Below are positions 41,753 to 58,314 of a stretch of 64,000 bases of DNA, in pieces. Under the pieces are notes generated by a model. That model was not told the origin of the DNA. It made no database searches and saw nothing but the letters and a program-made list of their open reading frames with translations. Position numbers and translations under genes: made by a program. The stretch spans positions 682,001 to 746,000 of the forward strand of contig NZ_OY762974.1 in NCBI RefSeq assembly GCF_963667135.1, read 5' to 3'. The DNA comes from an uncultured Macellibacteroides sp. GTDB lineage: Bacteria; Bacteroidota; Bacteroidia; Bacteroidales; Tannerellaceae. The first letter of the stretch is position 1. Every line of letters starts with the position of its first letter.

Positions 41753-42400
41753 ATGAAGGATATAATAATATATGGTGCAGGCGGTTTCGGTAAGGAAATA
41801 GCTTGTCTTTTGCGTCATATCAATGAGGCCAAACCTACATGGAATCTTATAGGCTACCTCGACGATAATCAAGCCTGTTGGGGGCAGCAGGTATCGCATT
41901 TCGGCACATGTCTGGGAGGTATAGACTTTCTTAATAATTATCCAAGCGAAATTGCAGTAATCTTGGGTATGGGAAGTTCCAATGCTGTTAGAGCTGTACG
42001 CGAAAAGATAACCAACCCGCACGTCAGTTTCCCTAACATTATACACCCTACCTTTAGAATCAATGACCCAGAAACTTTTAAGATTGGAGAGGGCAACATT
42101 ATTCAGAGTCTCTGTATAGTAACTTGCGATGTTACTATGGGTAATTTCAACGTCCTGAATGGAGCTATTACCTTAGGTCATGATGTTGTGATAGGTGACT
42201 ATAATACAATCATGCCTGGTGTTCGCATCTCTGGCGAGACAAAAGTTGGCGAACACAATTTCTTTGGCGTGGGATCAATTGTATTGCAGCAATTGAAAAT
42301 TGGCAACAGGGTTCGTCTGTCTGCAGGTAGTGTATTGATGACAAAGCCTAAGGATGGTATGCTATACATGGGAAATCCTGCAAAAAAAACTGAACTATAA
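41753..42400 (+). CDS. PglD/NeuD-type sugar N- or O-acyltransferase
   Basis: 215 residues. N-terminal Rossmann-like region IIIYGAGGFGKEIACLL, LIGYLDD, then left-handed beta-helix with LGHDVVIGDYNTIMPGVRISG (catalytic His) and C-terminal YMGNPAKKTEL. The PglD family acylates the 4-amino group of UDP-4-amino sugars with acetyl-CoA. Here it sits directly before an ACP gene and condensing enzymes, so the acyl donor may be an acyl-ACP rather than acetyl-CoA. That is inference from context. Confidence 0.85.
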   Translation: MKDIIIYGAGGFGKEIACLLRHINEAKPTWNLIGYLDDNQACWGQQVSHFGTCLGGIDFLNNYPSEIAVILGMGSSNAVRAVREKITNPHVSFPNIIHPTFRINDPETFKIGEGNIIQSLCIVTCDVTMGNFNVLNGAITLGHDVVIGDYNTIMPGVRISGETKVGEHNFFGVGSIVLQQLKIGNRVRLSAGSVLMTKPKDGMLYMGNPAKKTEL

Positions 42401-42438
42401 GTAAATAATAAATATTAATCATTTAAAATTGTACAATT

Positions 42439-42672
42439 ATGAAATCATTAGATGAATTTGTAGAGCTCTTTGCAGAGCAGTTTGACGACACAGATGCAAG
42501 CGTATTCACAGCAAGTACTGTATTCCATGACATAGAGGAGTGGTCTTCTCTGATCGGTCTGTCTGTCATTGCAATGGTTGACGAAGAGTTCGACGTAACT
42601 CTCAAGGGTGACGATGTTCGCACTTCTGTAACCGTTGAGGATATGTACAACAAAGTAGTAGCAAAGCTGTAA
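42439..42672 (+). CDS. Acyl carrier protein (cassette 1)
   Basis: 77 residues, strongly acidic helical bundle: LDEFVELFAEQFDDTDASVF, EEWSSLIGLSVIAMVDEEFD. The phosphopantetheine Ser is in the Ser-Ser-Leu of EWSSLIGL; standard fatty-acid ACPs have Asp-Ser-Leu, so the usual Asp is replaced. Clearly not the housekeeping acpP. It starts the run KAS III - SDR - SDR - KAS III - FabD and presumably carries their intermediates. Confidence 0.9.
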   Translation: MKSLDEFVELFAEQFDDTDASVFTASTVFHDIEEWSSLIGLSVIAMVDEEFDVTLKGDDVRTSVTVEDMYNKVVAKL

Positions 42673-42676
42673 TAGC

Positions 42677-43735
42677 ATGGCATACTTAGAGATTAAGAAT
42701 GTTAGGATCGCCGGCATTAGTGCCGGTGCTCCTAAACAAACCATTTGCAATCTGAATCTGCAGAACCTCTCTAAAGATTACGATGCTGCAGCTTTTGTTG
42801 AAACCACAGGTGTCTATGAGCGTCATGTTGACGATTTGACAGTCTCAGACCTCTGCATTCCTGCTGCCGAAAAACTGATTGCTGATCTTGGTTGGAGTAA
42901 AGATGAAATTGATGCTGTAGTGTTCGTTTCTCAGCATGCCGATTACATCCTGCCCGCTACATCGTGTATCATTCAGAATAAATTAGGGTTATCAAAAGAG
43001 TGCTTTGCAGAAGATATTGCTTTGGGTTGTTCAGGATGGGTTTATGGTTTGAGTAACGTTTGTTCATTGGTCTCTACCGGCAACATTAAGAAGGCTCTTC
43101 TCATGAATGGTGACGCCAAGAAGCGCATCAAGTGCGAAGATGCTTTGTTTGGATTTGCAGGTACGGTAACTGCTCTTGAATATAAAGAAGGTGCCGAAAG
43201 CTTCAAGTTCCATCTTGGTACTGATGGCAGTGGTTATGACGCTATCATTATTCCTGATGGTGGTGCCCGCAATCAGGTTAGCGCAAAGTCCTTCGATCTG
43301 GAAGAAATAGATGGACGTAAATATACACGCCTTGAGTCTCGTATGAAGGGTATGGATGTATTCTCGTTCGGTATTTCAACAGCTCCAAAGTCAGTAAAGA
43401 AGTTGGCCGAACATTTCCAGTTTGACTATCAGGAGTGCGACTATCTCTTGCTGCATCAGGCTAACATGAAGATGAACAACATGATTGCTAAGAAACTGAA
43501 GTTCGCACCGGAGAAGGTACCTTCAAGTATGTATAACTTTGGCAACACATCATCTGCTTCTATTCCTTTGACTATTGTGACTCAACTCAAAGAGAGGGCA
43601 GCTGTCGAGACCAAGTATGTCTGCTGTGGTTTCGGAGTAGGACTTTCATGGGGTACCGTTACATTCAAGACAGAGTGCATAGTTTTGTCAGACCTTGTGT
43701 TGGTTGAAAAAGACGAGGAGGCTCAGTGGGTATGA
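42677..43735 (+). CDS. 3-oxoacyl-ACP synthase III family (KAS III), cassette 1 copy 1
   Basis: 352 residues, thiolase fold. Active-site Cys in ALGCSGWVYGL, His in LLHQANMKM, Asn in NFGNTSSASIPL, and GFGVGLSWG near the end. KAS III enzymes condense a short acyl-CoA starter with malonyl-ACP. It lies 4 bases after the ACP gene and its stop overlaps the next ketoreductase (ATGA). Being one of two in the module suggests two rounds of extension or different starters. Confidence 0.9.
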   Translation: MAYLEIKNVRIAGISAGAPKQTICNLNLQNLSKDYDAAAFVETTGVYERHVDDLTVSDLCIPAAEKLIADLGWSKDEIDAVVFVSQHADYILPATSCIIQNKLGLSKECFAEDIALGCSGWVYGLSNVCSLVSTGNIKKALLMNGDAKKRIKCEDALFGFAGTVTALEYKEGAESFKFHLGTDGSGYDAIIIPDGGARNQVSAKSFDLEEIDGRKYTRLESRMKGMDVFSFGISTAPKSVKKLAEHFQFDYQECDYLLLHQANMKMNNMIAKKLKFAPEKVPSSMYNFGNTSSASIPLTIVTQLKERAAVETKYVCCGFGVGLSWGTVTFKTECIVLSDLVLVEKDEEAQWV

Positions 43736-44478
43736 TAAGCAATCCTTTCAGCCTTGAAGGCAAAACAATATTGGTGACTGGAGCCTCTTCCGGAATAGGT
43801 CGGGAGACTGCCGTTCAATGTTCCAAGTTGGGAGCTACAGTCGTAATCACTGGACGTGACGTCGAGCGTCTTCAGCAGACCTACGACATGCTCGAAGGTG
43901 AAGGTCATATTCAGATTATTGCAGACATCAGACAGGATGAAGGTATAGACCATATGGTCGCAGAATGTCCTGTATTGGATGGACTTGTTAATAATGCTGG
44001 CAGCAGTAAGGGTGCTCCTGTGAACTTTATTAAGAGAGGTGATATTGAGGCTGTATATAATACCAATCTGTATGGCGTTATGCTGCTAACCAAGTCTCTA
44101 CTCAAGAAAAAGAAACTGGCACGCAACTCTTCAATAGTATTCACATCTTCTATTTCAGCCAGAATGACAGCTGCTGGCATTGCCATTTATGCTTCGTCCA
44201 AAGCTGCTCTTTCTGCATATATGCGAAACTGTGCTATCGAATTGGGGCCTAAGGGTTTCAGAGCAAATGCCGTTCTTCCCGGTATGGTTGAGACAAAACT
44301 GATCAACAGTGGCAAATATACCGAGGAGGACAAGCAGGCCGATCTGAATCTCTACCCTCTTGGTCGATATGGCAAACCTGAAGATGTAGCGTATTTAGTA
44401 ATCTATCTGCTGAGTGATGCAAGTGCCTGGATGACGGGCTCAGAACTTGTTATCGATGGTGGCAGATGCTTAAAATAA
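43732..44478 (+). CDS. Short-chain dehydrogenase (FabG-like ketoreductase), copy 1
   Basis: 248 residues from ATG 43732, which overlaps the KAS III stop. NADP site VTGASSGIGRETA, GLVNNAGSS, catalytic Ser of SSIVFTSSISARM, Tyr-x-x-x-Lys in AIYASSKAALSAYMR, and C-terminal WMTGSELVIDGG. Reduces 3-oxoacyl-ACP to 3-hydroxyacyl-ACP. Confidence 0.9.
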   Translation: MISNPFSLEGKTILVTGASSGIGRETAVQCSKLGATVVITGRDVERLQQTYDMLEGEGHIQIIADIRQDEGIDHMVAECPVLDGLVNNAGSSKGAPVNFIKRGDIEAVYNTNLYGVMLLTKSLLKKKKLARNSSIVFTSSISARMTAAGIAIYASSKAALSAYMRNCAIELGPKGFRANAVLPGMVETKLINSGKYTEEDKQADLNLYPLGRYGKPEDVAYLVIYLLSDASAWMTGSELVIDGGRCLK

Positions 44479-44489
44479 AGAGTACAACA

Positions 44490-45254
44490 ATGGAATATAA
44501 TCCTTTAGCAATATCAGGAAAGACTATCCTGATTTCCGGTGGTGCTTCCGGTATCGGTCGCCAGTGTGCTATCGACTTTTCGAAGACTGGGGCAAATCTG
44601 GTACTGTTGGATCTGAACGAGGAGCAATTGGCTGTTACAAAAGAGCTGTGTGAGCAGGACATCAAATGTTCGTGCTACAAATGCGATTTGACCGATGACG
44701 CTACTGTAGCAGATCTGTTCAAGACCATAGTTGCTGAAAATGGTGCTATCGATGGTTTCCTGCATTGTGCAGGCATTGAGAAGACATTGCCATATAACAA
44801 ATTCTCTTCAGCAGACTTTGCCAAGATCTTTGATGTGAACTTTATTAGTGCAATGAACATTATCAAGCAGTTGTCGAAGAAATCCAACCGTAGCGAGATT
44901 CTCAAGATTGTATTGATAGCATCTATTACAGCTGTTGTTGGACGACCTGGTGTAACCGCTTATGCTGCATCCAAGGGTGCAATCGTTTCTGCTGTCAAGA
45001 CTATGGCGCTCGAGATGGCTTCAAAGGGCATTAATATCAACTGTATTTCTCCGGGTACTATCCTGACACCCCTCATGCAGAATATGCTTGAGACATTGAC
45101 CGAGGAGCAGAATGAAGAACGTAAATCGGGCTTCCCTCTTGGTCTTGGAATGCCAAGCGATATAGCGAATACGGCTATGTTCCTCTTGTCAGATGGTGCA
45201 AGGTGGATAACCGGTCAAAACATTGTGGTTGATGGTGGCTACACGTCACGCTAA
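44490..45254 (+). CDS. Short-chain dehydrogenase (FabG-like ketoreductase), copy 2
   Basis: 254 residues from ATG 44490. ISGGASGIGRQCAI, FLHCAGIEKT, VLIASITAVVGRPGV, YAASKGAIVSAVK (catalytic Tyr and Lys) and WITGQNIVVDGGY. Copies 1 and 2 are clearly diverged from each other, so they may differ in stereochemistry or chain position. The next gene starts 18 bases later. Confidence 0.9.
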   Translation: MEYNPLAISGKTILISGGASGIGRQCAIDFSKTGANLVLLDLNEEQLAVTKELCEQDIKCSCYKCDLTDDATVADLFKTIVAENGAIDGFLHCAGIEKTLPYNKFSSADFAKIFDVNFISAMNIIKQLSKKSNRSEILKIVLIASITAVVGRPGVTAYAASKGAIVSAVKTMALEMASKGININCISPGTILTPLMQNMLETLTEEQNEERKSGFPLGLGMPSDIANTAMFLLSDGARWITGQNIVVDGGYTSR

Positions 45255-45272
45255 TTTTCTAATTCTAAATTT

Positions 45273-46379
45273 ATGGCTTTTTTTAATTTTGAAGGAATAA
45301 AAATTTCCTGTGTTGCAAGTGCAGTTCCATCTACCGTTGTGAAGGTTACTGACTTTGCATTTCAGTTTGGTGAAGAGGCTTGCAGCAAGTTTTCAGAGAG
45401 TACTGGTGTAAAGGAGTTCAGAAAGACTTCTGAGCATCAAACTGCTTCCGACCTGTGTTGTGCAGCTGCAGAGAATATTATTACTACTAAGAATGTAAAT
45501 CGTGACGAGATTGGAGCTTTAGTCTTCATTGCTCACAGTACCGACTACCGCAGACCTGCTACAGCATGTGTGCTTCACAAGCGTCTGGAGCTCGCTAAGG
45601 ATTGCGTATGTTTCGATGTTAGCCTTGGCTGTTCGGCTTTTGTGTATGGACTGAATATCGTAGGTTCGTTGATGCAGAGTTCAAACATCAAGAAGGCACT
45701 CTTGCTTTGTGGTGAGTCTTTGACAAAGATGACCAACCCTAAGGATAAATCCGTTGCAATGCTTTTTGGTGATGGTGGTAGTGCCGTTCTGTTGGAGAAG
45801 ACAGATGAGCCTTCTACGGTCAAGGGTCTTGTTAAGAGCGATGGATCGGGGTACAAGGCGATCATTGCTCCTGCTGGAGGATTCCGAAACATCAATGCAA
45901 CAACCGAGGATTTTGTATGGCCTGATGGCAATACCCGCTCACTTTATAACACAACTATGCAAGGTGAGGATGTATTTGCATTTACCATTTCTGCAGTTCC
46001 TCGTACCGTTAAGGAGTTCCTTGCTGAAACAGGCACAACTGTTGACGATTATGACTGTCTGGCATTCCATCAGGCAAACAAGTTCATTACCCAGATGCTT
46101 TGCAAGAAACTGAAGGTAAGTCAGGAGAAAATGCCTATTTGTCTGGATCGTTATGGGAATACTTCTGCTCCTGCTATCCCCATGATAATCAGTGATACAT
46201 ATGGCAATAACAACGAGGATAAGGAGTTGAACTTCCTGATGTGTGGTTTTGGTGTAGGTCTATCATGGGGTGTATGCTCTGCTAAGATTAATACCAAGGA
46301 TATTCTGCCTATCATAGAAACAGATAATGTATTCGAAGAGGGCATCATTAACTGTCCTGAGGACTTTTTCAAGGAGTAA
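45273..46379 (+). CDS. 3-oxoacyl-ACP synthase III family (KAS III), cassette 1 copy 2
   Basis: 368 residues. Active Cys in DVSLGCSAFVYGL, His in AFHQANKFITQ, Asn in RYGNTSAPAIPM, and CGFGVGLSWGVCS. Shares overall pattern with copy 1 (42677) but is diverged. Having two KAS III plus two ketoreductases and one ACP is the set needed for two condensation/reduction rounds, e.g. a 3,5-dihydroxyhexanoyl chain. Confidence 0.9.
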   Translation: MAFFNFEGIKISCVASAVPSTVVKVTDFAFQFGEEACSKFSESTGVKEFRKTSEHQTASDLCCAAAENIITTKNVNRDEIGALVFIAHSTDYRRPATACVLHKRLELAKDCVCFDVSLGCSAFVYGLNIVGSLMQSSNIKKALLLCGESLTKMTNPKDKSVAMLFGDGGSAVLLEKTDEPSTVKGLVKSDGSGYKAIIAPAGGFRNINATTEDFVWPDGNTRSLYNTTMQGEDVFAFTISAVPRTVKEFLAETGTTVDDYDCLAFHQANKFITQMLCKKLKVSQEKMPICLDRYGNTSAPAIPMIISDTYGNNNEDKELNFLMCGFGVGLSWGVCSAKINTKDILPIIETDNVFEEGIINCPEDFFKE

Positions 46380-46391
46380 AGCTTTTAAACA

Positions 46392-47256
46392 GCATACGTA
46401 TTCCCCGGTCAGGGTGCTCAGTTCGTAGGAATGGGCAAAGACCTCTATGACAACTCGCCCAAGGCAAAAGAGTTGTTCGAAAAGGCCAATGAGATTCTTG
46501 GCTATCGTATAACGGACATCATGTTCAGCGGAACGGATGAGGAGCTGAAGCAGACGAAGGTTACTCAACCTGCCGTAATCCTGCATTCGGTCATTTCGGC
46601 ATTGTGCTCCGATGAGTTCAAACCCGATATGACAGCCGGTCACTCATTGGGTGAGTTCTTTGCATTGGTAGCAGCTGGCGCACTCTCTTTCGAGGATGGT
46701 TTTCGACTGGTATATGTTCGAGCTATGGCAATACAGAAAGCTTGTGATGCAGCTCCATCGACCATGGCAGCTATCATAGCGCAGGACGATGTGACCATCG
46801 AGCGCATCTGTGATGAAGTGAGCACCAAGGGAATGTGGTGGTTCCTGCCAATTACAACTGCCCGGGTCAGGTTGTTATCACCGCAATATCGAAGCCATCA
46901 ATACCGCATGTGTTCGCATGAAGGAGGCTGGTGCAAAGCGTGCTCTTCCGTTGGCAGTAAGTGGTGCGTTCCACTCTCCTTGAATGGAACCTGCTCGTCA
47001 GGAACTGGCAGAGGCTATCGAGAAGACTCAGTTCAATACTCCTGTTTGTCCTGTCTATCAGAATGTGGATGCACTACCTCATACCGATCCGGAAGAGATC
47101 AAAGCCAACCTCCTGAAGCAATTGACCGCTTCTGTCCGTTGGACTCAGAAGGTGAAGAACATGATTGCTGATGGTGCAGAAGAGTTCGTTGAGTGCGGCC
47201 CTGGTACGGTTCTGACAGGCATGATTGTCAAGATCAAGAAAAGTTTGGAAGCATAA
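46392..47256 (+). pseudogene. Malonyl-CoA:ACP transacylase (FabD-like) pseudogene
   Basis: The protein is recognisable from AYVFPGQGAQFVGMG through TAGHSLGEFFALVA (nucleophile Ser) to ECGPGTVLTGMI. There is no start codon: a TAA lies at 46386 and the normal Met-Lys-Ala start is lost. The frame breaks after VSTKG (near 46835, continuing VVPANYNCPGQVVIT in another frame), breaks again near 46890 (continuing IEAINTACVRMKEAGAKR), and has a stop at SP-TGA-ME (near 46981). Malonyl supply for the module would have to come from the chromosomal fabD. Confidence 0.88.
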
Positions 47257-47257
47257 T

Positions 47258-47842
47258 ATGACGATTCTTCCGGTTAATAATACCATTATGAATTCAGCAA
47301 CCTACGTTCTCTATTCGGAGGATGTAGATTCCTGTGTTCTGATAGACTGTGGGGAGTATGAGACTTTGGCTCCTGTATTGGATAAAATCGGCAAAAAGGT
47401 TAAGGCTGTATTGCTAACTCATGGACATTCAGATCATATCTATGGTTTGGTAAAATTGTTAGAGGTAGATCCCACAATAGAAATCTTGACCAATGAATCA
47501 GGTCATGAACAGATTGTTGATGTCAAAAAGAATATGTCCAAATATCACGAAATATCCTTTGTGGTAGTTGGAAATAATCTTCGTACTATTAACGATGGTG
47601 ATGTAATTCAGTATGACGGTTTGTGTGAGATTTCCGTTATGGCAACTCCTGGACACGACCCAAGTTGTCTAACTTATAAGGTAGGTATGGATCTATTTAC
47701 AGGTGATTCGTATATACCTGGTGTTAAAGTGTTTACACAATTTACAAGAGGAAATAAGACGCAAGCGCAACAATCATATCAGATGTTGGCTAATATGGAA
47801 ATAGAAGGCTATACAATTCATTGTGGCCATCATTCATTTTAA
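47258..47842 (+). CDS. MBL-fold metallo-hydrolase
   Basis: 194 residues from ATG 47258. Metal motif LLTHGHSDHIYGL (HxHxDH), then TPGHDPSC, FTGDSYI and a final HCGHHS. Fits the glyoxalase II/thioesterase-like branch of the metallo-beta-lactamase fold. Right after the ACP/KAS/SDR genes, it could hydrolyse acyl thioesters (editing or release). It ends about 90 bases before the IS66 left end. Confidence 0.88.
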   Translation: MTILPVNNTIMNSATYVLYSEDVDSCVLIDCGEYETLAPVLDKIGKKVKAVLLTHGHSDHIYGLVKLLEVDPTIEILTNESGHEQIVDVKKNMSKYHEISFVVVGNNLRTINDGDVIQYDGLCEISVMATPGHDPSCLTYKVGMDLFTGDSYIPGVKVFTQFTRGNKTQAQQSYQMLANMEIEGYTIHCGHHSF

Positions 47843-48015
47843 TTAGAATTGTCCAATGACTCAACAAGTAGGCCGGACATGAATCTGCTGATGGATTGGT
47901 TAGAACAAACTACCTATCAAAAGAAACCTTGTACGGTAAGCGTTCAATACTCGGCTGTTGTATCAAAAATTAATTCCGTTTAGATTTGTGGCATACAAAA
48001 TTAAAAAATACTCTT

Positions 48016-48348
48016 ATGCCTAAAATGACAGATTATGTTGCTTTGTGGGAAAAATACCAAAGAGAGGGCGTTCCTCAAAAAATACCCATTGAACGCTTTT
48101 GTGTAATGAACGGTTATACTTACAAACAATTTGAGCAGTGGTACAAAACCGATCGGAATGTTAGTTTCACGCCTCTTGAACTTAGTGATCCGACCGTTTC
48201 GTCAGAAGCTCCGGTTACAAGTCCGGATCAATCTTCCAATTTTCAAATCAAGTGCCTTCGCCTGGTTTTGAGTGATGGAATTGAGATTCGTCAAAAGAAT
48301 ATCAACCTGGATTCAGCCATCTCGCTGCTCCGCAAATTATCCGTTTGA
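48016..48348 (+). CDS. tnpA: IS66 TnpA-like accessory protein
   Basis: 110 residues from ATG 48016 (an upstream start at 47986 is possible). YVALWEKYQREGVPQ and VMNGYTYKQFEQWYKT are a helix-turn-helix of the TnpA/Orf1 type. The closing LVLSDGIEIRQKNINLD strand region is the usual end of this family. Frame intact. Sits first in the IS66 order tnpA-tnpB-tnpC. Confidence 0.8.
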   Translation: MPKMTDYVALWEKYQREGVPQKIPIERFCVMNGYTYKQFEQWYKTDRNVSFTPLELSDPTVSSEAPVTSPDQSSNFQIKCLRLVLSDGIEIRQKNINLDSAISLLRKLSV

Positions 48349-48349
48349 T

Positions 48350-48604
48350 ATGTTTGGACTTACCGGAACACTCAATTACTATTTATGCGATGGCTTTACC
48401 GATATGCGTTGGGGGGATAATGATTAATCAAATTACTTCGCTACGAAAGTGATGCTTATATTCTCTACGAGAAACGTTTGGACCGTCATCGCTTTATGCG
48501 CCCGGTCTATGATGAACAGAAACGTTGTTACAGAATGAATTGGGAACGCTTTGTTTTACTACTTCAGGGCATTGTCCGGAAAGAGCTTTTGATTGCGAGT
48601 TAAA
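48350..48604 (+). pseudogene. tnpB: IS66 TnpB (Orf2) fragment
   Basis: Begins MFGLTGTLNYYLCDGFTDMRWG, the start of TnpB, then reaches a stop at GGDND; the end continues in another frame as ESDAYILYEKRLDRHRF and NWERFVLLLQGI. The middle (usually about 40 residues) is missing. Not functional. Confidence 0.8.
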
Positions 48605-48683
48605 TTATATTAATACACTATATATCAGTCATTTAAATACATAAATGTTTTAATATTAGCTTAGTTTTACGTATCTTTATGGT

Positions 48684-50255
48684 ATGGAAAACCAGCTTAA
48701 TCAACAGATGAATATGGCACTTTTGCACCAGTCTCAGGATGAAATTCTGAGACTGCGCAAAAACCTGAAGCATCAAGCAAACAACGAAGAAACCGTGAGA
48801 GAGCTGATTGACAAATTAGATAAAGCCTTTGAAGAATTATCTTCCATGAATAGCCGACTGATCCGCTACATGGAAGAGAATCACGGTTTGCAAGACATCG
48901 TGTCTTCCTTACGGGAGGAAAATAGTGCTCAGAAGAAGCTGTTGGAGTCTATGGACCAGCAACTCCGCTTAGCCAATGAAGCAAAACTTCATAAGGGCAA
49001 ACGTTTTGGTTGAAAGTCGGAAACTGCCAAAAGTTTGAAATTCAAAGACGCAAAAGACCGTGAAGAGGATAAGTCTGATTTTGACGGAACGCCTCCTCCC
49101 GCTCAAGAGAACTCTGATGAAACGAATCCTGGTTCCGATAGCACTGTTTCATCGGAACAAAAGAAGGAATATTCCAATCCCCGTACAAGCTACGGCAAGA
49201 AAACCATTGTGGCAGACAAGGTTGTTGTTCACTATTGCTCCCAAGAGGCTATTCCAGCCGGGGCTCATGTTCTGGAAGAACGTGTACACATCGTCTATGA
49301 ATACAAGATGGAGGTTATTGAACATCGCTATATCAGCTATCGGGTGGTTGAGAATGGTGGTACACCCTACGAAGTTCCTTATGTAAGCAATGACCCTTTG
49401 GATACTTTTGGATCTAAAGCTTGTATGATTGAGGGGTGTCCGGCAGATGTTTCCCTGCTTGCTATGATTTTGACTAATAAATATCAGTTTCATTTACCTG
49501 TTCAACGTCAGGTGGAGATGTTGGCCAGCTATGGGTTGAAAATTAGTAAATCGACCCTGAATCATTGGTTGCACAAGGCCATTAAGCAGCTGCGGCCTTT
49601 AGAGGATGCCATAAAAACTCAACTATTAGAGGCTGGAAGTTATTTGTTTTGTGACGAAACCTCCGAATTAGTTTGCGTCAAAGACGCTAAAACCGGCGAG
49701 ATGCATTATCGCAAGAAATATGTCTGGGGTATCGTAAATACCGTAAAGAAACTGGTCTATTACCTTTATGAAGAAGGTAGTCGTGCCCGTAAGGTTATCG
49801 GCAATTTTCTGTCGGGGTCCCGACTTCAGGCCCACCAAGTAAAAGAATTGCGAAAAGAAAAATCGGGTTCTACCCTTGGGGATCTTTATAGCCAGATAGA
49901 AAGTCTTTACCACGATAAACTGACAAGGTATAGTGATCTGCTACGAAAAGCAATAAACTATGCTTATCACGAATGGAAGGCCGTTGTCCGGTATATAGAA
50001 AATGTAAATTGGAGTATAGATAACAACGAAGGAAAGAGGCGAATGAAGCCTGTCGTTTTGGAAAGAAAGAATTATACGAATTACGGCTCTCATCAAGGAG
50101 CCAGTAATGGCGCGTACATGTATACGCTGGTGGAAAGCTGCAAGATGAGTGGCTCGTCACCTGTCGCTTATATCAGGGACGTACTACACTCTTTAATCAA
50201 GGGAGAAACCGATAATCTGCAGCTTATACCCTGTAATTGGGTTAATAATAAATAA
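48684..50255 (+). pseudogene. tnpC: IS66 transposase TnpC, inactivated
   Basis: About 515 residues if the single in-frame stop is read through. The N-terminal leucine-rich coiled coil is followed by KRFG-TGA-KSE (TGA at 49011-49013; CGA Arg is the likely ancestor). The DDE domain has SYLFCDETSELVC (first Asp), but the segment with the second Asp (after IGNFLSG, near 49815) is deleted. The final NNEGKRRMKPVVLERKNY region is kept. Nonsense plus deletion make it inactive. Confidence 0.88.
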
Positions 50256-50332
50256 AATCAAGAACATGTTTTTTAATAATATGGCTTATTTACCCGTTAA
50301 ATCGGGGCGACAGCCGAATATTGAACGCTTAC

Positions 50333-50372
50333 TATTTATGCGATGGTTTTAACGATATACGTTGGGATGCCG
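50333..50372 (+). mobile_element. Short IS66 tnpB scrap beyond the right end
   Basis: ATTTATGCGATGG and ACGATATACGTTGGG match the tnpB start at 48379-48415 (ATTTATGCGATGG, CGATATGCGTTGGG). So a second copy was present or nested here, and recombination joined it to the terminal repeat. Confidence 0.65.
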
Positions 50373-50449
50373 TTCCAAAAATGTACTATTACTAGTCACA
50401 CTCTCACCCAAGAATGGATGATATATTATAATTATTTAAAATAAAAAAA

Positions 50450-51058
50450 ATGTATAAACATATTTCCAAAAGAATCTTTGATTTCTTGTTATCTACTTTG
50501 GCGTTTATTTGCTTGAGTCCAATATTGGGAGTCATTACTATTTGGCTACACTTTTCGAACAAAGGTTCTGGAGCATTCTTCTACCAAGAACGTCCAGGTA
50601 AGGATGGAAAAATATTTAAAGTGGTTAAGTTTAAAACAATGACAGAAGAACGGGATATTTATGGTAATTTATTGCCTGATGAAAAACGATTGACCTCAGT
50701 TGGGAAGTTTGTTCGTTCTACTTCGCTGGATGAATTACCTCAATTGATAAATGTTTTGAAAGGAGATATGTCATTAATCGGACCTCGTCCGTTATTGGTT
50801 CACTATTTGCCATTATATTCAAAAGAACAATCACGCAGGCATGAAGTTCGTCCGGGTATAACGGGATGGGCGCAGGTAAATGGGCGTAATGCTATTTCCT
50901 GGAAGCAAAAATTTGAATATGATGTATGGTATGTGGATAACATGAGCTTCATACTGGATATGAAGATATTGTTTCTTACTATAAAAAAGGTATTTGTACG
51001 GGAAGGTATTTCCTCTTCAACGAGTGTAACCATGGAAGCTTTTAATGGAAATAATTAA
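50450..51058 (+). CDS. Initiating phosphoglycosyltransferase (PglC/WcaJ C-terminal type)
   Basis: 202 residues: a membrane re-entrant helix at the N-terminus ([19 protein letters not shown]), then [21 protein letters not shown] with the conserved [24 protein letters not shown] (catalytic Asp-Glu), IGPRPLL and [15 protein letters not shown]. Transfers a sugar-1-phosphate to undecaprenyl phosphate to start the repeat unit. The small size fits the monotopic class that uses diacetylbacillosamine or AATGal. First gene of cassette 2. Confidence 0.93.
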
Positions 51059-51069
51059 ATAGCACAATA

Positions 51070-51717
51070 ATGAATAAAATTGCAATTTATGGAGCTGGCG
51101 GTTTTGGACTTGAGGTGGCTTACTTAATTCAAAAAGTTAACGAAAGGTTTGCAATTCCCGAATGGGAAGTAATTGGCTTTTTTGACGACGGAAAAAAACA
51201 AGGTGAAATCAATGAATACGGACCAATTTTGGGAGGTATTAATGAACTTAATGCATTTCATAAGCCTCTATACATTGCTTTTGGCATTAGATCTCCTAAA
51301 ATTGTAAAAAAGATTGTTAGTGAGATTAACAACGAAAATATTTATTTCCCAAACATAATTTCGCCTGATTGTAAATATTTAGATCGCAATAGTATTACAT
51401 TGGGAAAAGGGAATATCCTCACATCAGGTTGTTACTTCAATTATAACATTAAAGTTGGTGATTTTAATATTTTAGACAACAATGTTTCGTTAGGACACGA
51501 TGTTATTATCGGAAGTTATAATTCATTTATGCTTGGGGTAAGAATATCGGACTATGTTACTATTGGTAGTAGTAATTTATTCGGCGTTTACTCTGTTGTA
51601 CTTAGGCAGAAAACAATTGGAAATAATACAACTATAGGTGCCGGAAGTATAATAATACGTAACACGAAAGATAACAATACCTATATAGGTAACCCTGCTA
51701 TAAAATTTAAGTTCTAA
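51070..51717 (+). CDS. PglD/NeuD-type acyltransferase, cassette 2 copy 1
   Basis: 215 residues. IAIYGAGGFGLEVAYLI, VIGFFDDGKKQG, left-handed beta helix with SLGHDVIIGSYNSFMLGVRIS (catalytic His), ending in YIGNPAIKFKF. Very similar in layout to the gene at 41753 and to the next gene. Probably N-acylates a UDP-4-amino sugar. Starts 11 bases after the initiating transferase gene, a pairing also seen in pgl loci. Confidence 0.85.
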   Translation: MNKIAIYGAGGFGLEVAYLIQKVNERFAIPEWEVIGFFDDGKKQGEINEYGPILGGINELNAFHKPLYIAFGIRSPKIVKKIVSEINNENIYFPNIISPDCKYLDRNSITLGKGNILTSGCYFNYNIKVGDFNILDNNVSLGHDVIIGSYNSFMLGVRISDYVTIGSSNLFGVYSVVLRQKTIGNNTTIGAGSIIIRNTKDNNTYIGNPAIKFKF

Positions 51718-51721
51718 ATCA

Positions 51722-52363
51722 ATGAAAAATATAGCTATTTATGGAGCATGCGGTTTTGGTCGCGAAATCGCATGTTTGATTCGAATTAAAAATCAGAATG
51801 AACCAACATGGAATTTAATTGGTTATTTTGATGATGCTTTACCTAAAGGTACTGTTAATAAGTATGGTTCCGTATTAGGAAATATAGATATACTTAATAA
51901 TTGGAATAGCGAATTAGCAGTTACTCTGGCTATTGGGAATCCAACAGTACTAAAAAAAATTGTAGAGAAAATATCAAATAAAAATATCTATTACCCAAAT
52001 ATAATTTCGCCGGACATAATTTATTTAGATAAATCTAGTTTAACTATTGGAATAGGGAATATTATTTGTTCACGTTGTATGTTTAGTTGTAACATTTCTA
52101 TAGAGAGCTTCAATATTTTCAATTCTTACATTACTATTGGTCACGACACAAAATTAGGCTCGTATAACGTAGTAATGCCATCGGTTAATATTTCAGGTGA
52201 AGTTTCAGCCGGAGATTCTAATTTTATGGGTGTATCATCTGTTATTTTACAACAAATAAGAATTGGAAATAATGTCCGCGTTGGAGCTGGTAGTGTTATA
52301 ATTAAAAAGACAAAAGATAATACGTTATATGTAGGTAATCCTGCTGTTAAAATGGAATTTTAA
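51722..52363 (+). CDS. PglD/NeuD-type acyltransferase, cassette 2 copy 2
   Basis: 213 residues, directly follows copy 1. IAIYGACGFGREIACLI, LIGYFDD and SYITIGHDTKLGSYNVVMPS, ending in YVGNPAVKMEF. Gly of the usual AGGFG is Cys here. Its closer position to the ACP gene suggests this one may use acyl-ACP. The two tandem copies may acylate different positions or use different donors. Confidence 0.85.
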   Translation: MKNIAIYGACGFGREIACLIRIKNQNEPTWNLIGYFDDALPKGTVNKYGSVLGNIDILNNWNSELAVTLAIGNPTVLKKIVEKISNKNIYYPNIISPDIIYLDKSSLTIGIGNIICSRCMFSCNISIESFNIFNSYITIGHDTKLGSYNVVMPSVNISGEVSAGDSNFMGVSSVILQQIRIGNNVRVGAGSVIIKKTKDNTLYVGNPAVKMEF

Positions 52364-52382
52364 TAATTTAAATTAAATAACT

Positions 52383-52613
52383 ATGGAACTAAAAGACTTT
52401 ATCGAAAACTTCGCTGCTCAATTTGACGATACGGATCCAAATGAATTTAGGACAGAAACAAAGTTTAAAGAATTAGAAGAATGGTCTTCGTTAACGGCTT
52501 TATCTATTATTGCTATGGCTGATGAAGAGTATAATGTTAAGATTAAAGGAGATGATATCAGGGAATCTTCAACAATTAATGATCTTTTTCTAATTGTTAA
52601 ATCGAGGAGTTAA
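52383..52613 (+). CDS. Acyl carrier protein (cassette 2)
   Basis: 76 residues, acidic: LKDFIENFAAQFDDTDPNEF, EEWSSLTALSIIAMADEEYN, GDDIRESSTINDL. The phosphopantetheine Ser is in the same Ser-Ser-Leu variant as in the cassette 1 ACP, so the two are orthologous in type. Followed 6 bases later by the ketoreductase. Confidence 0.9.
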   Translation: MELKDFIENFAAQFDDTDPNEFRTETKFKELEEWSSLTALSIIAMADEEYNVKIKGDDIRESSTINDLFLIVKSRS

Positions 52614-52619
52614 TTGATA

Positions 52620-53366
52620 ATGTACAATCCATTTTCATTAATAGGAAAAACGATTCTTGTAACGGGAGCCTCTTCTGGTATTGGTAGAGCTATTGCAATA
52701 GAATGTTCCCGAATGGGAGCAACTATTGTAATATCAGGACGTAATGAGCAGAGACTTGAAGATACATTTAAACTGCTTGAGGGGACAAATCATCAAAAAG
52801 TGGTTGCCGATTTAAATTCGGAAGTGGGTATTAAAATATTGCATTTGAATCTTCCTGCTTTGAATGGAATGGTCCATTGTGCCGGTTTAACGAAGACTGT
52901 TCCTTTTCAGTTTGCTACCAGAGATGCGTTGGACGAGGTATTGAATGTTAATTTTTATGCTCTTGCAGAGATCACTCGTAGTACCCTTAAGGCAAAAAAA
53001 ATGGAGAAAAATGGTTCAATTGTTTTTATATCTTCTGTTTCGGGGGTTTACTGTTCGGCTGACGCCTCTTCTATTTATTCGGCTTCCAAAGGGGCTGTGA
53101 ATGGTTTGGTTAAAGGAATGGCATTGGATTTGGCTCCAAAAGGAATTCGGGTAAATTGTGTAAATCCAGGAATGATTGATACGCATATTTTTGAAGCGGG
53201 TGCAATTACACCTGAGCAACTTGAAGAAGATAAAAAGCGTTATCCGCTAAAGCGATATGGCAAACCGGAGGAGGTTGCTCATGCGGTTATTTATCTGCTA
53301 TCGGATGCCAGTGGGTGGGTAACGGGCTCTAATTTATTAATTGATGGAGGTTATACATTATTATAG
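52620..53366 (+). CDS. Short-chain dehydrogenase (FabG-like ketoreductase), cassette 2
   Basis: 248 residues from ATG 52620; a TTG at 52614 is possible. VTGASSGIGRAIAI, GMVHCAGLTKT, IVFISSVSGVYCS, SIYSASKGAVNGLVK (Tyr and Lys) and C-terminal WVTGSNLLIDGGY. Closest in style to copy 1 of cassette 1 (NPFSL at the start and WxTGSxLxIDGG at the end). Reduces 3-oxoacyl-ACP. Confidence 0.9.
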   Translation: MYNPFSLIGKTILVTGASSGIGRAIAIECSRMGATIVISGRNEQRLEDTFKLLEGTNHQKVVADLNSEVGIKILHLNLPALNGMVHCAGLTKTVPFQFATRDALDEVLNVNFYALAEITRSTLKAKKMEKNGSIVFISSVSGVYCSADASSIYSASKGAVNGLVKGMALDLAPKGIRVNCVNPGMIDTHIFEAGAITPEQLEEDKKRYPLKRYGKPEEVAHAVIYLLSDASGWVTGSNLLIDGGYTLL

Positions 53367-53369
53367 GAT

Positions 53370-54375
53370 ATGAAACAAGTATATATAAAAGCAATATCAT
53401 CGTTTCTACCTGAAAAGGTCGTAACTAATGAAGATTTAATTTGTGAGTTTCCAGAATGGACGGTGGAAAAAGTGGCAAGCAAGCTTGGAATTAATTCCAG
53501 ACATATAGCGGCCGAAAATGAAACAGCAGGTGATATGGCCGAAAATAGCTGCAGTAAATCTTTTTCAAGAGTGGAACATCGATCCGAAGTCTATTGATTT
53601 TGTAATGTTATGTACTCAGAGCCCGGATTATTTTTTGCCGACAACAGCCTGTATACTTCAAAACAGACTTGGTATCCCTACCTCATCTGGTGCAATTGAT
53701 TACAATCTAGGATGTTCCGGTTATGTATATGGTTTAGCCTTGGCAAAAGGATTGGTTGTTAGTGGTATTGCTAAAAATGTGTTACTTCTTACTTCCGAAA
53801 CTTATTCGAAGCATATACATCCGAAAGATAAAGGTAATAGAACCATATTTGGCGACGCAGCTACAGCAACAGTAATTTCTACAGAAGGATTCGCCCGAAT
53901 CGGCGAATTTAGTTTGGGAACAGACGGTGGCGGTGCGAATAATTTAATTGTTAAAACAGGCGGAATGAAACATCAACGTCCAATAAACGATGTGGTCATT
54001 GATGAAAATGGAACAATTCATTCATCTGATAATTTGTATATGAATGGAACTAAAATATTTTCATTTACTCAAGATAATGTTCCTCCTTTAATTGACGACA
54101 CTTTATTAAAAAACGACTTGTCTAAAACGGATGTGGACCTTTATGTTTTTCACCAGGCTAATAAGCATATGCTTAATTTCCTGAGAAAGAAAATGAAAAT
54201 TGAGGAAGAAAAGTTTTTCTATTGTTTTTCCGAATCTGGAAATACAGTATCATCGACCATTCCAATTGCATTAAAAGAAGCATTGGCTGGTAAGCATATA
54301 AAAGAAGGGAATAAAGTCGTTATTGCCGGATTTGGAGTAGGTTACTCCTGTGGTGGTTGTACGTTATATTATTAA
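53370..54375 (+). pseudogene. KAS III family gene with a one-base frameshift
   Basis: Starts in good order (MKQVYIKAISSFLPEKVVTN, SKLGINSRHIAAENETAGDMAE) and then shifts by one base at the run of four As at 53542-53545, continuing as IAAVNLFQEWNIDPKSIDFV. All active-site residues are in the second part: YNLGCSGYVYGLAL (Cys), YVFHQANKHM (His), SESGNTVSSTIPIA (Asn). Removing one A restores a single frame of about 334 residues. A sequencing or assembly error is possible, as is recent decay. Confidence 0.75.
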
Positions 54376-54501
54376 ACGAATCTTATAATAAAACGCTCTA
54401 CAAAAGGTGGTAGGACCTCAATATAGTGATAATTAAGCTATAAACAAACAATGTACACCTTAAGGACTGGGCCCTATGTCCAGAGATCAAAAAGAAAAAC
54501 C

Positions 54502-54736: not shown

Positions 54737-55888
54737 ATGAATAATTCAAAGATTTGGCTTTCGCTTGCTCACATGTCTGGCCGTGAACAAGACTTTATAA
54801 AAGAGGCTTTTGATACCAACTGGGTGGTTCCGTTGGGTCCAAACGTGGATGGGTTCGAAAAGGATCTGGCAGGTTTTGTTGGCGAAGACCGGCATGTTGT
54901 GGCACTGAGTGCCGGAACAGCTGCGTTGCACCTTGGGTTGATTGAACTTGGTGTAGGTATGGGGGATGAAGTGATTTGTCAGTCTTTTACCTTTTCGGCT
55001 TCGGCTAATCCTATCGTTTACCAGCATGCTGCTCCGGTGTTTATCGACAGCGAAAAGGATACCTGGAATATGGATCCGGCTTTTCTGGAAGAGGCTATCC
55101 TTGACAGATTGGCGCAGAAAGGGAAATTACCCAAGGCTATCATTCCGGTGCATCTGTACGGGATGCCTGCTAAAATGGATGAGATAATGGAGATTGCGAA
55201 TCGGTATGGTATTCCTGTGCTTGAGGATGCGGCGGAAGCGCTGGGTTCGGAGTATAAGGGTCGTAAATGTGGTACCTTCGGCGATTTTGGTGTGCTTTCG
55301 TTTAACGGGAACAAGATGATTACTACTTCGGGTGGTGGGGCGTTGGTTTGTCGTACGGCCGAACAGGCGTCGAAGACTATGTTTTACGCTACGCAGGCCC
55401 GGGATAAGGCTCCTCATTACCAACATACACATATTGGTTACAATTACAGAATGAGTAACATTTGTGCGGGTATTGGCCGGGGGCAGATGACTATCCTTCG
55501 CGAGCATATCGCCCGCAGACGTGCCATTCATCAACTCTATGTTTCCTTGCTTTCGGATATAGAGGGTATTTCGTTTCTTACAAATCCTTCGTCCGATTTT
55601 AAGTCCAATCACTGGCTTACCTGTATTGTAGTTGATCCTACAGTTACAGGCTTTACGCGCGAGGATATTCGTCTGCAATTGGAACACGGTAACATTGAAA
55701 GCCGTCCGCTTTGGAAGCCTATGCACATGCAGCCCATATTTAAAACAGCTCCTTTCTACGGAAATGACACAGCTGAAGTTCTATTTAGAAATGGCCTCTG
55801 CCTGCCTTCGGGTCCTACCCTTACGGACGAGGATATCCATCGGGTAGTTTCTTCCATTAAAGAATTGCAGCTGGTTTGTAAGGTATAA
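54737..55888 (+). CDS. DegT/DnrJ/EryC1-family PLP aminotransferase
   Basis: 383 residues. LSAGTAALHLGLIELGV, the PLP-pocket Asp in VLEDAAEALGS, the Schiff-base Lys in FNGNKMITTSGGG and a C-terminal WLTCIVVDP region. Converts a UDP-4-keto-6-deoxy sugar to the 4-amino sugar, the step between the 27528 dehydratase and PglD-type acylation (PglE- or WcfR-like). Its GC-rich codon use matches the dehydratase, Gmd and ManC genes rather than the cassettes, so it belongs to the conserved frame of the locus. Confidence 0.9.
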   Translation: MNNSKIWLSLAHMSGREQDFIKEAFDTNWVVPLGPNVDGFEKDLAGFVGEDRHVVALSAGTAALHLGLIELGVGMGDEVICQSFTFSASANPIVYQHAAPVFIDSEKDTWNMDPAFLEEAILDRLAQKGKLPKAIIPVHLYGMPAKMDEIMEIANRYGIPVLEDAAEALGSEYKGRKCGTFGDFGVLSFNGNKMITTSGGGALVCRTAEQASKTMFYATQARDKAPHYQHTHIGYNYRMSNICAGIGRGQMTILREHIARRRAIHQLYVSLLSDIEGISFLTNPSSDFKSNHWLTCIVVDPTVTGFTREDIRLQLEHGNIESRPLWKPMHMQPIFKTAPFYGNDTAEVLFRNGLCLPSGPTLTDEDIHRVVSSIKELQLVCKV

Positions 55889-56696: not shown

Positions 56697-58241
56697 ATGA
56701 AGAAAAAAAAAGATTGGTTTAAAGTTAGAGGGTATCAACATATTGGCATTTCACTCCTTTATAAAGATAGAAAGTGGGTATATGGCTATGTACGTAACAT
56801 TGATAAAATCGCGGAGCATGCCTTTTTACCGTTAATTTACAAGCCTTTCAAAACGGAGCGTTGTAAAAGGAATTTCGAAAATCCATCAAAGAAACGAATA
56901 CGGGAGCCAAAAATACGCCCCATTTGTTATGCCAACCATCTAGATGCAAGTATTTATTCGTATTACGCATTTATCTTGGTAAAAAAATATGATGATTATG
57001 TAAAATCTATACCTTTTAACAAATCTATTACTGCATATAGACAATTAGAAGTTAACGATGCTGGTAAAATAAGAAATAAATGTAATATTGATTTTGCCAA
57101 AGATGTTTTTGAATATATTAAAGAGAATTGCACAGCAAATGGCTTAGCGGTTCTTACGTTTGATGTAGAAAAGTTCTTTGATAATCTGGATCCTATAATT
57201 TTAAAGAAATGTTGGATTAGAGTACTTGGTTCCGATAAATGCCTGTCAAAAGATCATTATGCTGTATATAAGAACGTGGTTCGTTATAGCTACGTTCATG
57301 AAAATGATTTGTTTAATCTATTTAAAAATGAAATTCCTTGTTCTAAAAAGGATGGAACATTAGTTAAAAGAAAAATAATACATTCGCGCTATATGCACAA
57401 TCATAACGCAATGGGGTATTGTGATAAAACTGGCATTAAAAAAATAAGAGATAGTGGTATTATTATAGAGCATCGAAAAGATAGTAGTATAGATGAAAAA
57501 TTAAGAATGAGGGGGATACCCCAAGGGTTACCTATCAGCTCTGTTCTTGCAAATATTTACATGCTAGACTTTGACTCAGCTATTTACGAAAAAGTAAATC
57601 TAGAAAATGGATTTTACAACAGGTATTGTGATGATGTGATAGTTGTGTGCCCTATTGACAAAGCGGATTCGATAAAGAATTATATATTAGAACAGATTAA
57701 AGATCTAAAGCTAAACATACAAGAAAAAAAGACGAATGTTTATTATTTTAAGCATCAAGCCAACGGCTCTTTATATTGTGAACATGCAGTTTTGGGAAAA
57801 CGTAAAGCATTAGAGTTTCTTGGTTTTCAGTTTGATGGACAACGTATTTTATTAAAATCTTCCAGCGTTTCATCTTTTTATTGTAAAATGATGAGGAGTG
57901 TGCATAGAGGGGGATTTTATGCTATAAATATAAATACGCAAGAGAAATACAAACTATTTACAAGAAAATTTTATAAACGTTTTACAAGATTCGGTATGAA
58001 AAGAAGTCTTAGGTATAAACGGGATCCAAATGACACAAGCAAATTTGTAAGATCGACAAAATACAACTGGGGCAATTACCTTTCATACGCTCATAATGCT
58101 AGTAGAATTATGAAAGATGAAGGTATTAAAAATCAGCTTCGTCATAGTAATTCCATTTTAGTAAAAGTAATAAAACGGAAAATAAGCGTCATAAACAAAG
58201 TGATGTATGCTAGATCTTTGAAAGATCAACAATATAATTAA
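56697..58241 (+). CDS. Reverse transcriptase of the defence-associated (unknown-group) type
   Basis: 514 residues. RT palm motifs: RIREPKIRPICYANHLDASI (motif near the N-terminus), VLTFDVEKFFDNLD (motif 3, catalytic Asp), MRGIPQGLPISSVLANIYM (motif 4), YCDDVIVV (Tyr-x-Asp-Asp, catalytic pair) and LEFLGFQFDG. No maturase or endonuclease domain, so not a typical group II intron RT, and no retron-like short form. The N-terminal RGYQHIGISLLYKDRKWVYG extension and long C-terminus fit the standalone unknown-group/DRT family; the exact subtype (e.g. DRT2- or DRT9-like) cannot be set by eye. It lies next to a DUF4145 gene, between IS66 debris and gmd. Confidence 0.85.
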   Translation: MKKKKDWFKVRGYQHIGISLLYKDRKWVYGYVRNIDKIAEHAFLPLIYKPFKTERCKRNFENPSKKRIREPKIRPICYANHLDASIYSYYAFILVKKYDDYVKSIPFNKSITAYRQLEVNDAGKIRNKCNIDFAKDVFEYIKENCTANGLAVLTFDVEKFFDNLDPIILKKCWIRVLGSDKCLSKDHYAVYKNVVRYSYVHENDLFNLFKNEIPCSKKDGTLVKRKIIHSRYMHNHNAMGYCDKTGIKKIRDSGIIIEHRKDSSIDEKLRMRGIPQGLPISSVLANIYMLDFDSAIYEKVNLENGFYNRYCDDVIVVCPIDKADSIKNYILEQIKDLKLNIQEKKTNVYYFKHQANGSLYCEHAVLGKRKALEFLGFQFDGQRILLKSSSVSSFYCKMMRSVHRGGFYAININTQEKYKLFTRKFYKRFTRFGMKRSLRYKRDPNDTSKFVRSTKYNWGNYLSYAHNASRIMKDEGIKNQLRHSNSILVKVIKRKISVINKVMYARSLKDQQYN

Positions 58242-58314
58242 TAAAAGAACTGATTAAACTCAGGTTGTACAACAAAAAAATCAATGTTATTTATTACAAA
58301 GCCATAAATTCGAT

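Follow-up and report, generated by a model that had tools for sequence, protein, structure and literature searches.

A polysaccharide-type locus of an uncultured Macellibacteroides sp. carries two gene cassettes, each combining a dedicated acyl carrier protein (ACP) with ketoacyl-ACP synthase III (KAS III), short-chain dehydrogenase/reductase (SDR) and PglD-type sugar N-acyltransferase genes. The cassettes lie at positions 41753..54375 of the window, by which we mean the whole 64,000-nucleotide stretch analyzed (682001-746000 of the 4.46-Mb single contig NZ_OY762974.1). We conclude that each cassette is probably an ACP-tethered acyl assembly line for an N-acylated 4-amino sugar. Cassette 2 would be of a one-condensation type but looks broken, and cassette 1 would be of a type primed by a starter-loading enzyme (loader), without that loader. 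Gene calls in the window are based on an open reading frame (ORF) list and on Pfam and NCBIfam profile scans. Reactions, priming and products are predicted from gene content, lesions, tree positions and co-occurrence, which were observed directly.

Amino-sugar genes of the locus

By profile scans the locus contains 4-amino-sugar genes, all on the forward strand: a PglF/CapD-like nucleotide-sugar 4,6-dehydratase (27528..29486; Pfam Polysacc_synt_2, 402 bits), a PglE/LegC-like sugar aminotransferase (54737..55888; TIGR04181, 367.6 bits, below the cut-off of 420) and a PglC-like initiating sugar-phosphate transferase (50450..51058; Bac_transf, 215 bits). By analogy, these and the three PglD-type proteins would form a route to a lipid-carrier-loaded, N-acylated UDP-4-amino-4,6-dideoxy sugar. 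The PglF-like and then the PglE-like enzyme would produce the 4-amino-4,6-dideoxy sugar nucleotide, the PglD-type enzymes would N-acylate the sugar, and the PglC-like transferase would load it on the lipid carrier. The order of such a pathway is known from the pgl genes of Campylobacter. The Campylobacter pathway is recounted in passages of PMC6519341. Because PglF-, PglE-, PglC- and PglD-like genes share the locus, hydroxyacylation of a 4-amino sugar appears to be the best reading of it.

Cassette 2

Cassette 2 contains two PglD-type proteins, an ACP, an SDR and a KAS III, all encoded on the forward strand. The PglD-type acyltransferases (51070..51717 and 51722..52363) match NCBIfam TIGR03570 at 144.0 and 158.5 bits, respectively, both below the cut-off of 160.8; this pair was scanned in NCBIfam, and the Pfam PglD_N and Hexapep support comes from the PglD of cassette 1. 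The dedicated ACP (52383..52613), with EWSSL at its attachment site, matches NF002147 weakly (21.7 bits; cut-off 84) and is followed by SDR c (52614..53366; NF005559, 194.7 bits). The KAS III, here named KASc (53370..54375), was recognized with NCBIfam KAS III profiles and assigned to clade C by a tree of its larger piece. It is frameshifted, being split over two overlapping frames (N-terminal piece 53370-53597, remainder 53518-54375). The catalytic triad is seen on the 285-residue piece. In the N-terminal piece, Lys occupies the position of FabH Arg36, as read from the ORF and not from the alignment. KASc is predicted to be of starter type.

The plan of cassette 2 is that of the single-KAS clade C modules L095 and L149 (PglC, PglD, ACP, SDR, KAS, PglE), plus a second PglD. 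A clade C starter KAS III with one reductase would carry out one condensation and give a 3-hydroxybutanoyl group. A first-pass annotation of this DNA had proposed 3-hydroxybutanoyl as the product; the gene plan fits that class, yet the sequence shows a broken KAS III. The genome has five further KAS III matches, and no intact clade C KAS is among them (one, interrupted by a stop, is outside the tree). Because KASc is frameshifted, cassette 2 is probably not self-sufficient. The inventory of the two cassettes given by the first-pass annotation otherwise agrees with our gene calls, coordinates included; it is the intactness of this KAS III, read in two frames, that does not hold.

Cassette 1

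Cassette 1, also on the forward strand, runs in the order PglD-type protein, ACP, KAS III, SDR, SDR, KAS III, FabD remnant and metallo-beta-lactamase (MBL)-fold protein. The PglD-type sugar N-acyltransferase (41753..42400; PglD_N 39.1 bits, Hexapep 46.2 bits) scores 158.7 bits against TIGR03570 (NeuD/PglB/VioB), again below the cut-off of 160.8. It matches the PDB entries for PglB (4m98) and VioB (7txp), and the LGHD-motif His is aligned in these matches. In the PglD tree it falls in a clade of eight rows (100/98), the other seven being six rows from ligase modules and L283; the two cassettes have PglD proteins of different lineages. The dedicated ACP (42439..42672), which also carries EWSSL, is 51% identical to that of cassette 2.

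Both KAS III proteins of cassette 1 were identified by ACP_syn_III and ACP_syn_III_C domains, by the tree and by their residues. KASa (42677..43735) belongs to clade A1, has the catalytic Cys, His and Asn, and aligns Thr with FabH Arg36; it is predicted to be of elongating type and would extend a chain that is already on the ACP. KASb (45273..46379) has a complete catalytic triad and Ser at the Arg36 position, and forms its own lineage near the ligase-associated B2 types (support ~0.43). Between them are SDR a (43726..44478; 3-ketoacyl-ACP reductase-like; adh_short_C2, 175 bits) and SDR b (44466..45254; adh_short_C2, 199.5 bits).

The gene for FabD (malonyl-CoA:ACP transacylase; 46389..47256; PF00698, 59.6 bits on the first piece) is a pseudogene, where the first-pass annotation had noted a broken FabD: its start codon is absent and it is spread over three successive frames (two frame changes). 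Its two larger pieces share 82% and 76% identity with the FabD of module L117, 78% and 71% with that of L275, and 77% and 64% with the housekeeping FabD. Since they are nearer to the L117 and L275 proteins than to the housekeeping FabD, we infer that the remnant belongs with the module and is not a recent copy of the housekeeping gene. Open FabD copies were found in modules L117, L123 and L275. The MBL-fold hydrolase that follows (47258..47842; PF00753, scanned on a longer ORF from 47225) is a recurring accessory, present in 10 of 102 related modules.

No AMP-binding ligase or other starter-loading enzyme was found among the scanned cassette genes, and no match to the AMP-binding profile is labeled in the window. 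Cassette 1 has two SDRs and no KAS with Lys or Arg (K/R) at the Arg36 position, as in the ligase-primed two-KAS class. The nearest relatives of KASb, with weak support, appear all to be in modules with an adenylating ligase; in the six other B2-type modules an AMP-binding ligase is present in all six. Cassette 1 is most closely paralleled by the ligase-primed Bacteroidota modules L109, L117, L245 and L268 (Bacteroides timonensis), all four of which have the KASa subclade and two SDRs. L109 and L117 also share its PglD lineage and L117 its MBL and FabD, whereas the PglD of L268 is of a different lineage and the L245 module is without PglD. The ligase-primed modules hold an AMP-binding ligase and a second ACP, and cassette 1 has neither. 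Cassette 1 therefore seems to resemble the loader-primed class without having the loader. Because it combines traits of the ligase class with no ligase and a FabD pseudogene, it may be primed in trans or may be decaying. Priming could come from the ligase found in a third locus ~60 kb away, from some other enzyme or from malonyl-ACP after decarboxylation.

An IS66-family element or remnant lies between the cassettes on the forward strand (47986..50255; DDE_Tnp_IS66, 147.9 bits, on 49035-50255, the ORF to which the scan was confined). Downstream of the aminotransferase, positions 56697-59202 encode a reverse transcriptase (RVT_1, 54.8 bits) and then a DUF4145 protein; this pair is flanked on one side by the aminotransferase gene and on the other by a GDP-mannose-dehydratase-like gene that was named by eye.

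Distribution of the ACP family

The profile matches of the cassette enzymes are too strong to be due to chance. The cassette 1 ACP has no family match in Pfam or NCBIfam, and that of cassette 2, scanned in NCBIfam, has a weak one only. The Ser-Ser-Leu attachment site had been described as unusual; it is instead the commonest motif, found in 60 of 122 ACP-labeled proteins of polysaccharide-type loci (window included), with Asp-Ser-Leu in 22. A profile made from the two cassette ACPs matches 175 other genomes, namely 76/394 at class, 85/392 at order and 14/122 at family level with the window's own genome excluded (77/395, 86/393 and 15/123 with it included), at E limits of 1e-6, 1e-8 and 1e-8, respectively. 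At E 1e-8 the profile finds no such ACP in genome G800, of the same species, or in the congener G799. The DNA of 41753-54400 has no near match on plasmids, and viral contigs contain no relative of the cassette 1 ACP or of the ACP of L148, the two ACPs searched there.

With KASa as the query, six KAS III matches were found in the genome: the two of cassette 1, the broken gene of cassette 2, one near 786 kb, the stop-interrupted one, and a FabH-like one, called FabH by distance and used as the tree outgroup. The match near 786 kb belongs to a third locus (L091, ~786000-792000, outside the window), which encodes a cassette-family ACP on the forward strand. The opposite strand carries a further ACP gene and genes for a KAS III, a formyltransferase-like protein, an AMP-binding ligase and PglE- and PglC-like proteins. 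This ligase is the nearest one to cassette 1 that was seen.

Related modules and KAS III phylogeny

For comparison, 116 regions of relatives were fetched, mainly stronger ACP-profile matches among the class, order and family genomes, plus 80 named loci chosen by KAS similarity (the best 80 of 578). Loci L212-L291 were chosen by similarity to A1-type KAS, and how often two-KAS modules occur among them does not measure prevalence. Genes were labeled with our own profiles, built from the window and its relatives, at fixed score limits, which divergent ligases or acyltransferases may escape; ten large unlabeled flanking genes checked in Pfam have no AMP-binding domain. We dropped duplicates (L212, L219, L222, L228, L250, L253 and L264), the window itself and modules with a KAS piece of <240 residues (L111 and L242), and counted modules with an AB-clade KAS apart. 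This left 102 polysaccharide-type modules, of which 68 are complete, that is, not within 3 kb of a locus end.

A FastTree phylogeny of 315 KAS III proteins plus FabH separates clades C (n=98, support 0.99), B1 (n=23, 0.98), A2 (n=14, 0.92), A1 (n=72, 0.81, including KASa) and AF (n=15, 0.91, mostly Flavobacterium), a loose group B2 (n=7, including KASb, ~0.43), and AB (n=86, 0.98), to which the KAS of a widespread chromosomal operon belong. PglD subtypes cluster by module class, with 18 changes where shuffling gave 25.7 on average and a value as low in 0 of 200 shuffles, a result helped by near-copies (12 Flavobacterium rows) and in which the window's three PglD rows are all labeled two-KAS by proximity.

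Modules of the same kind were also seen on contigs binned outside the Bacteroidota: L213 and L214 (Chlorobiaceae metagenome-assembled genomes, MAGs), L226 (a Treponema MAG), L237 (a Methylotenera MAG) and L270 (a Lentisphaeria MAG), which would mean either that the modules moved horizontally or that the contigs were wrongly binned. One locus is common to twelve Flavobacterium genomes (L231, L232, L234, L236, L238, L243, L244, L246, L249, L252, L259 and L260) and has an ACP, a KAS, an SDR, a gene of ~362 residues, a second KAS and a PglD beside a PglE-like gene, which makes it a good experimental system. Among these, L243 is from Flavobacterium johnsoniae CI04 and its module combines AF and C enzymes, and L232 has a clade C KAS.

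Starters, loaders and reductases

Trp32, Arg36 and Arg151 were picked as residues that we take to be the CoA contacts of FabH. At the Arg36 position, K/R is present in 82/98 proteins of clade C and 18/23 of B1, and in 2/72 of A1, 0/15 of AF, 0/14 of A2, 0/7 of B2 and 1/86 of AB. Of the 50 complete modules that have no loader, 49 contain exactly one K/R KAS, whether they have one, two or three KAS. Among the 18 complete modules with a loader, 15 have no K/R KAS, two have one and one is without a residue call; in the two-KAS ligase/loader class, K/R is found in 2/8, with a gap in 1. If AMP ligases are taken as the sole loaders, the counts become 49/51 and 14/17, and in the ACP-based subset alone they are 18/19 (no loader, one K/R) and 6/6 (loader, none; L124 included). 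With near-copies grouped, the Fisher test gave p = 1.3e-9 at 80% identity, 8.9e-5 at 60% and 0.0025 at 50%, values that overstate independence, there being few clades and the residue following the clade. In a column control, 2 of 351 alignment columns part C and B1 from A1, AF, A2 and B2 (at least 70% one residue class in the former, at most 10% in the latter), and one of the two is the Arg36 position; 16 of 351 part clade C alone from A1, AF, A2 and B2. A reading of the Arg36 position by regular expression was dropped, the motif being absent or different in some rows, and alignment columns were used instead. Passages of PMC10054515 state that the Arg36 position in FabH helps place the substrate, and the residue may have a role in CoA priming.

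The partners of the A1 and AF enzymes show a similar division. In 48 of 49 complete modules with an A1/AF KAS there is also a starter-type (C or B1) KAS or a loader: clade C in 23 and B1 in 12 (both without loader), a loader in 13, and neither in one (L121). The 13 with a loader include A2 in seven, B2 in one and no KAS of another clade in five. Complete single-KAS modules without a loader have a C enzyme in 13 cases, B1 in one and A1 in one.

The first-pass annotation had proposed that the copy numbers of KAS and SDR together predict chain length. Of the 34 complete two-KAS modules that have no loader, 31 have a single SDR and 3 have two, whereas the complete two-KAS modules with a loader have at least two SDRs in 8/8 and a single one in 0/8. 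Reductase number varies with the presence of a starter-loading enzyme rather than with how many condensing enzymes there are.

Not all the loaders counted here are AMP-binding ligases. L124 has a single B1 KAS without K/R and no AMP ligase, and encodes an FkbH-domain protein (289 bits, cut-off 146.65) and a second ACP. Proteins of the FkbH type charge ACP with a glyceryl starter. FkbH-domain proteins of ACP/KAS/SDR polysaccharide modules were seen at L124:6615-8189 and L111:5025-6617, which suggests a glyceryl starter for some sugar acyl groups.

Comparison with known systems

In Flavobacterium psychrophilum, nuclear magnetic resonance (NMR) placed a 3,5-dihydroxyhexanoyl group on the 4-amino group of Qui2NAc4N (PMC6519341). 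The O-polysaccharide R1 genes described in passages of that paper (wfpC-wfpG, pglE, pglF and wfpB) comprise, as here, an ACP, two KAS, a ketoacyl-ACP reductase and PglD, PglE, PglF and PglC homologues. By the authors' homology assignment, wfpD encodes the ACP, wfpC and wfpE different KAS (GenBank MK214915 and MK214917, as given in that paper), wfpF the one reductase and wfpG the PglD homologue. The reductase is single there and double in cassette 1, FabD and MBL are not mentioned in those passages, and the product is known. Neither cassette has the combination of two KAS with a single reductase, cassette 1 having two SDRs and cassette 2 one KAS. The best 80 of the 578 KAS-similar loci include no F. 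psychrophilum record, and the likeness is one of described gene content, not of KAS clades.

Cassette 2 is closer to the viosamine island of Pseudomonas syringae pv. tabaci (vioA, vioB, vioS, vioR and acp), in which vioS encodes a KAS III and vioR a reductase, and where 3-hydroxybutanoyl is carried on 4-N; deletion of vioR led to loss of the modified sugar (PMC3927599). Both have one KAS III, a reductase, an ACP and an acyltransferase acting, or predicted to act, on a 4-amino-4,6-dideoxy sugar. The island, as described in that paper, works with dTDP-viosamine on flagellin, in contrast to the UDP-sugar of a Bacteroidota polysaccharide proposed here, and the two are likened by gene content, not by sequence. 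Measured against the island's set of one intact KAS III, one reductase and an ACP, the content of cassette 2 fits, but its KAS III is not intact.

Passages of PMC3210612 also report that bacillosamine-type sugars of Pseudoalteromonas and Plesiomonas bear (S)-3-hydroxybutyryl and that 3,5-dihydroxyhexanoyl occurs in V. cholerae O:3, and enterobacterial flagellin islands are described as including fatty-acid genes (PMC4875605). The two acyl groups named by the first-pass annotation are thus known decorations (PMC6519341, PMC3927599). Its idea of a dedicated ACP-dependent mini-pathway feeding a sugar N-acyltransferase finds two structurally backed precedents in the same two papers, and a PglD- or GNAT-type acyltransferase is present in 50 of 68 complete related modules. 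The principle of ACP-dependent sugar hydroxyacylation is already known, and the locus appears to be a variant arrangement of it with lesions. A literature search on such loci (titles and abstract starts in open-license PMC) returned no description of the KAS-type or loader pattern.

Interpretation and alternatives

The reading that we regard as probable, that of two assembly lines of which cassette 2 is broken and cassette 1 lacks its loader, was weighed against three others. The first-pass annotation saw two pathways that both work and are independent of each other, with 3,5-dihydroxyhexanoyl as the product of cassette 1, 3-hydroxybutanoyl as that of cassette 2, and chain length set by KAS/SDR copy number. 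Precedents with two KAS and with one KAS do have these products, and both KAS of cassette 1 have complete triads. KAS number as a predictor of how many condensations take place agrees with both precedents; the KAS:SDR ratio does not stand, as SDR count does not follow condensations in the related modules and the F. psychrophilum dihydroxy chain is made with one assigned reductase (PMC6519341). Cassette 1 sides with the ligase-primed modules in its PglD, its KASa, its pair of SDRs and the absence of a basic residue from both KAS, which weakens its assignment to 3,5-dihydroxyhexanoyl: with no ligase in the cassette, that product is possible but not favored, and not secure. With KASc frameshifted as well, we consider two working pathways unlikely.

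Alternatively, both cassettes could be relics that are decaying after IS66 activity and rearrangement, the sugar now being merely N-acetylated. The FabD pseudogene, the frameshifted KAS III, the IS66 element and the missing ACP in G800 and G799 are in line with this. The three PglD, both ACP, the three SDR and both cassette 1 KAS genes are still open, however, and we judge general decay to be about as unlikely as two working pathways. Unlikely to much the same degree is a pooled pathway with interchangeable ACPs, in which a cassette 2-type KAS starts and KASa extends to give one longer group: the identity between the ACPs and their common attachment site, the rank of clade C as the commonest A1/AF partner (23/49) and the lack of a K/R-type KAS in cassette 1 speak for it, but the only clade C KAS is frameshifted and the PglD lineages of the cassettes differ.

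From the comparison we tentatively propose an assembly code, which may well prove wrong, for the way in which polysaccharide loci of the Bacteroidota build hydroxyacyl groups for sugars. A CoA-primed starter KAS III (clade C or B1, basic at the Arg36 position), or in its place an ACP loader (an adenylating ligase or FkbH-like protein), would begin the chain, and a separate A1/AF KAS III, not basic at that position, would extend the acyl-ACP; cassette 1 would be of the loader type, with the loader lost.

A number of observations count against the preferred reading of the window and against this code. The frameshift in cassette 2 might be a sequencing error, and the tree placement of KASb is weakly supported. 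By profile, 18 of the 68 complete modules have neither PglD nor GNAT, which in part touches the objection raised in the first-pass annotation itself, that its reading would suffer if such clusters regularly occurred without a sugar acyltransferase; flanks were scanned for 16 of these 18, giving a hexapeptide protein in L130, an MBOAT in L134 and no acyltransferase in the other 14. L124 had at first stood out as an exception and was only then assigned to the loader class, and two ligase modules, L268 and L290, have Lys in their A1 KAS. Trp32 aligns with a gap in nearly all rows, Arg151 gave no clade separation, and the belt of FabH to which Arg36 belongs is said to bind CoA and ACP alike (PMC3734052). 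In the chromosomal operon, 50 complete modules without a ligase comprise 24 with one K/R KAS, 25 with none and one without a residue call. We also searched 14 genomes with an AB KAS and no clade C neighbor, one of which has a ligase nearby and one of which has the KAS at a contig edge. Only G424 has a further strong match to clade C; the next match scores 116-150 bits in each of the remaining 13 and was taken for FabH.

As a general law the Arg36 rule was rejected, since it fails in this chromosomal operon of KAS, ACP, KAS, SDR, GT2 and GNAT. Because the operon breaks the rule and 13 of the 14 genomes have no strong clade C match, either the AB enzymes do a different job or the Arg36 residue is not decisive. 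The operon, seen at L150:6574-11265 and in many Bacteroidota, encodes a KAS III, an ACP, a KAS III, an SDR, an ArnC/PgfS-like GT2 and a PseH-like GNAT, and in L150 a sulfotransferase-like gene adjoins it. Its gene content suggests a core pathway for hydroxyacyl-amino-sugars carried on polyprenyl phosphate. The MBOAT O-acyltransferase of L134 (6841-8262) stands beside a clade C KAS, an SDR and an ACP, and genes of similar size are present in L131 and L133 (L134 being the one scanned).

Acyl groups on 4-amino sugars shape serotype, and F. psychrophilum strains that differ in their R-group genes have antigenically different lipopolysaccharide, according to passages of PMC6519341. For the window, a simple copy-number rule gives way to one based on the type of KAS and on whether a loader is present. 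Extension of acyl-ACP by a KAS III clade would, if confirmed, be an unusual biochemical role for these enzymes. If the assembly code is true, the genes present would predict the starter and the chain length of the sugar decoration, and with KAS type and loader readable from the genome, many surface structures of uncultured Bacteroidota would become predictable.

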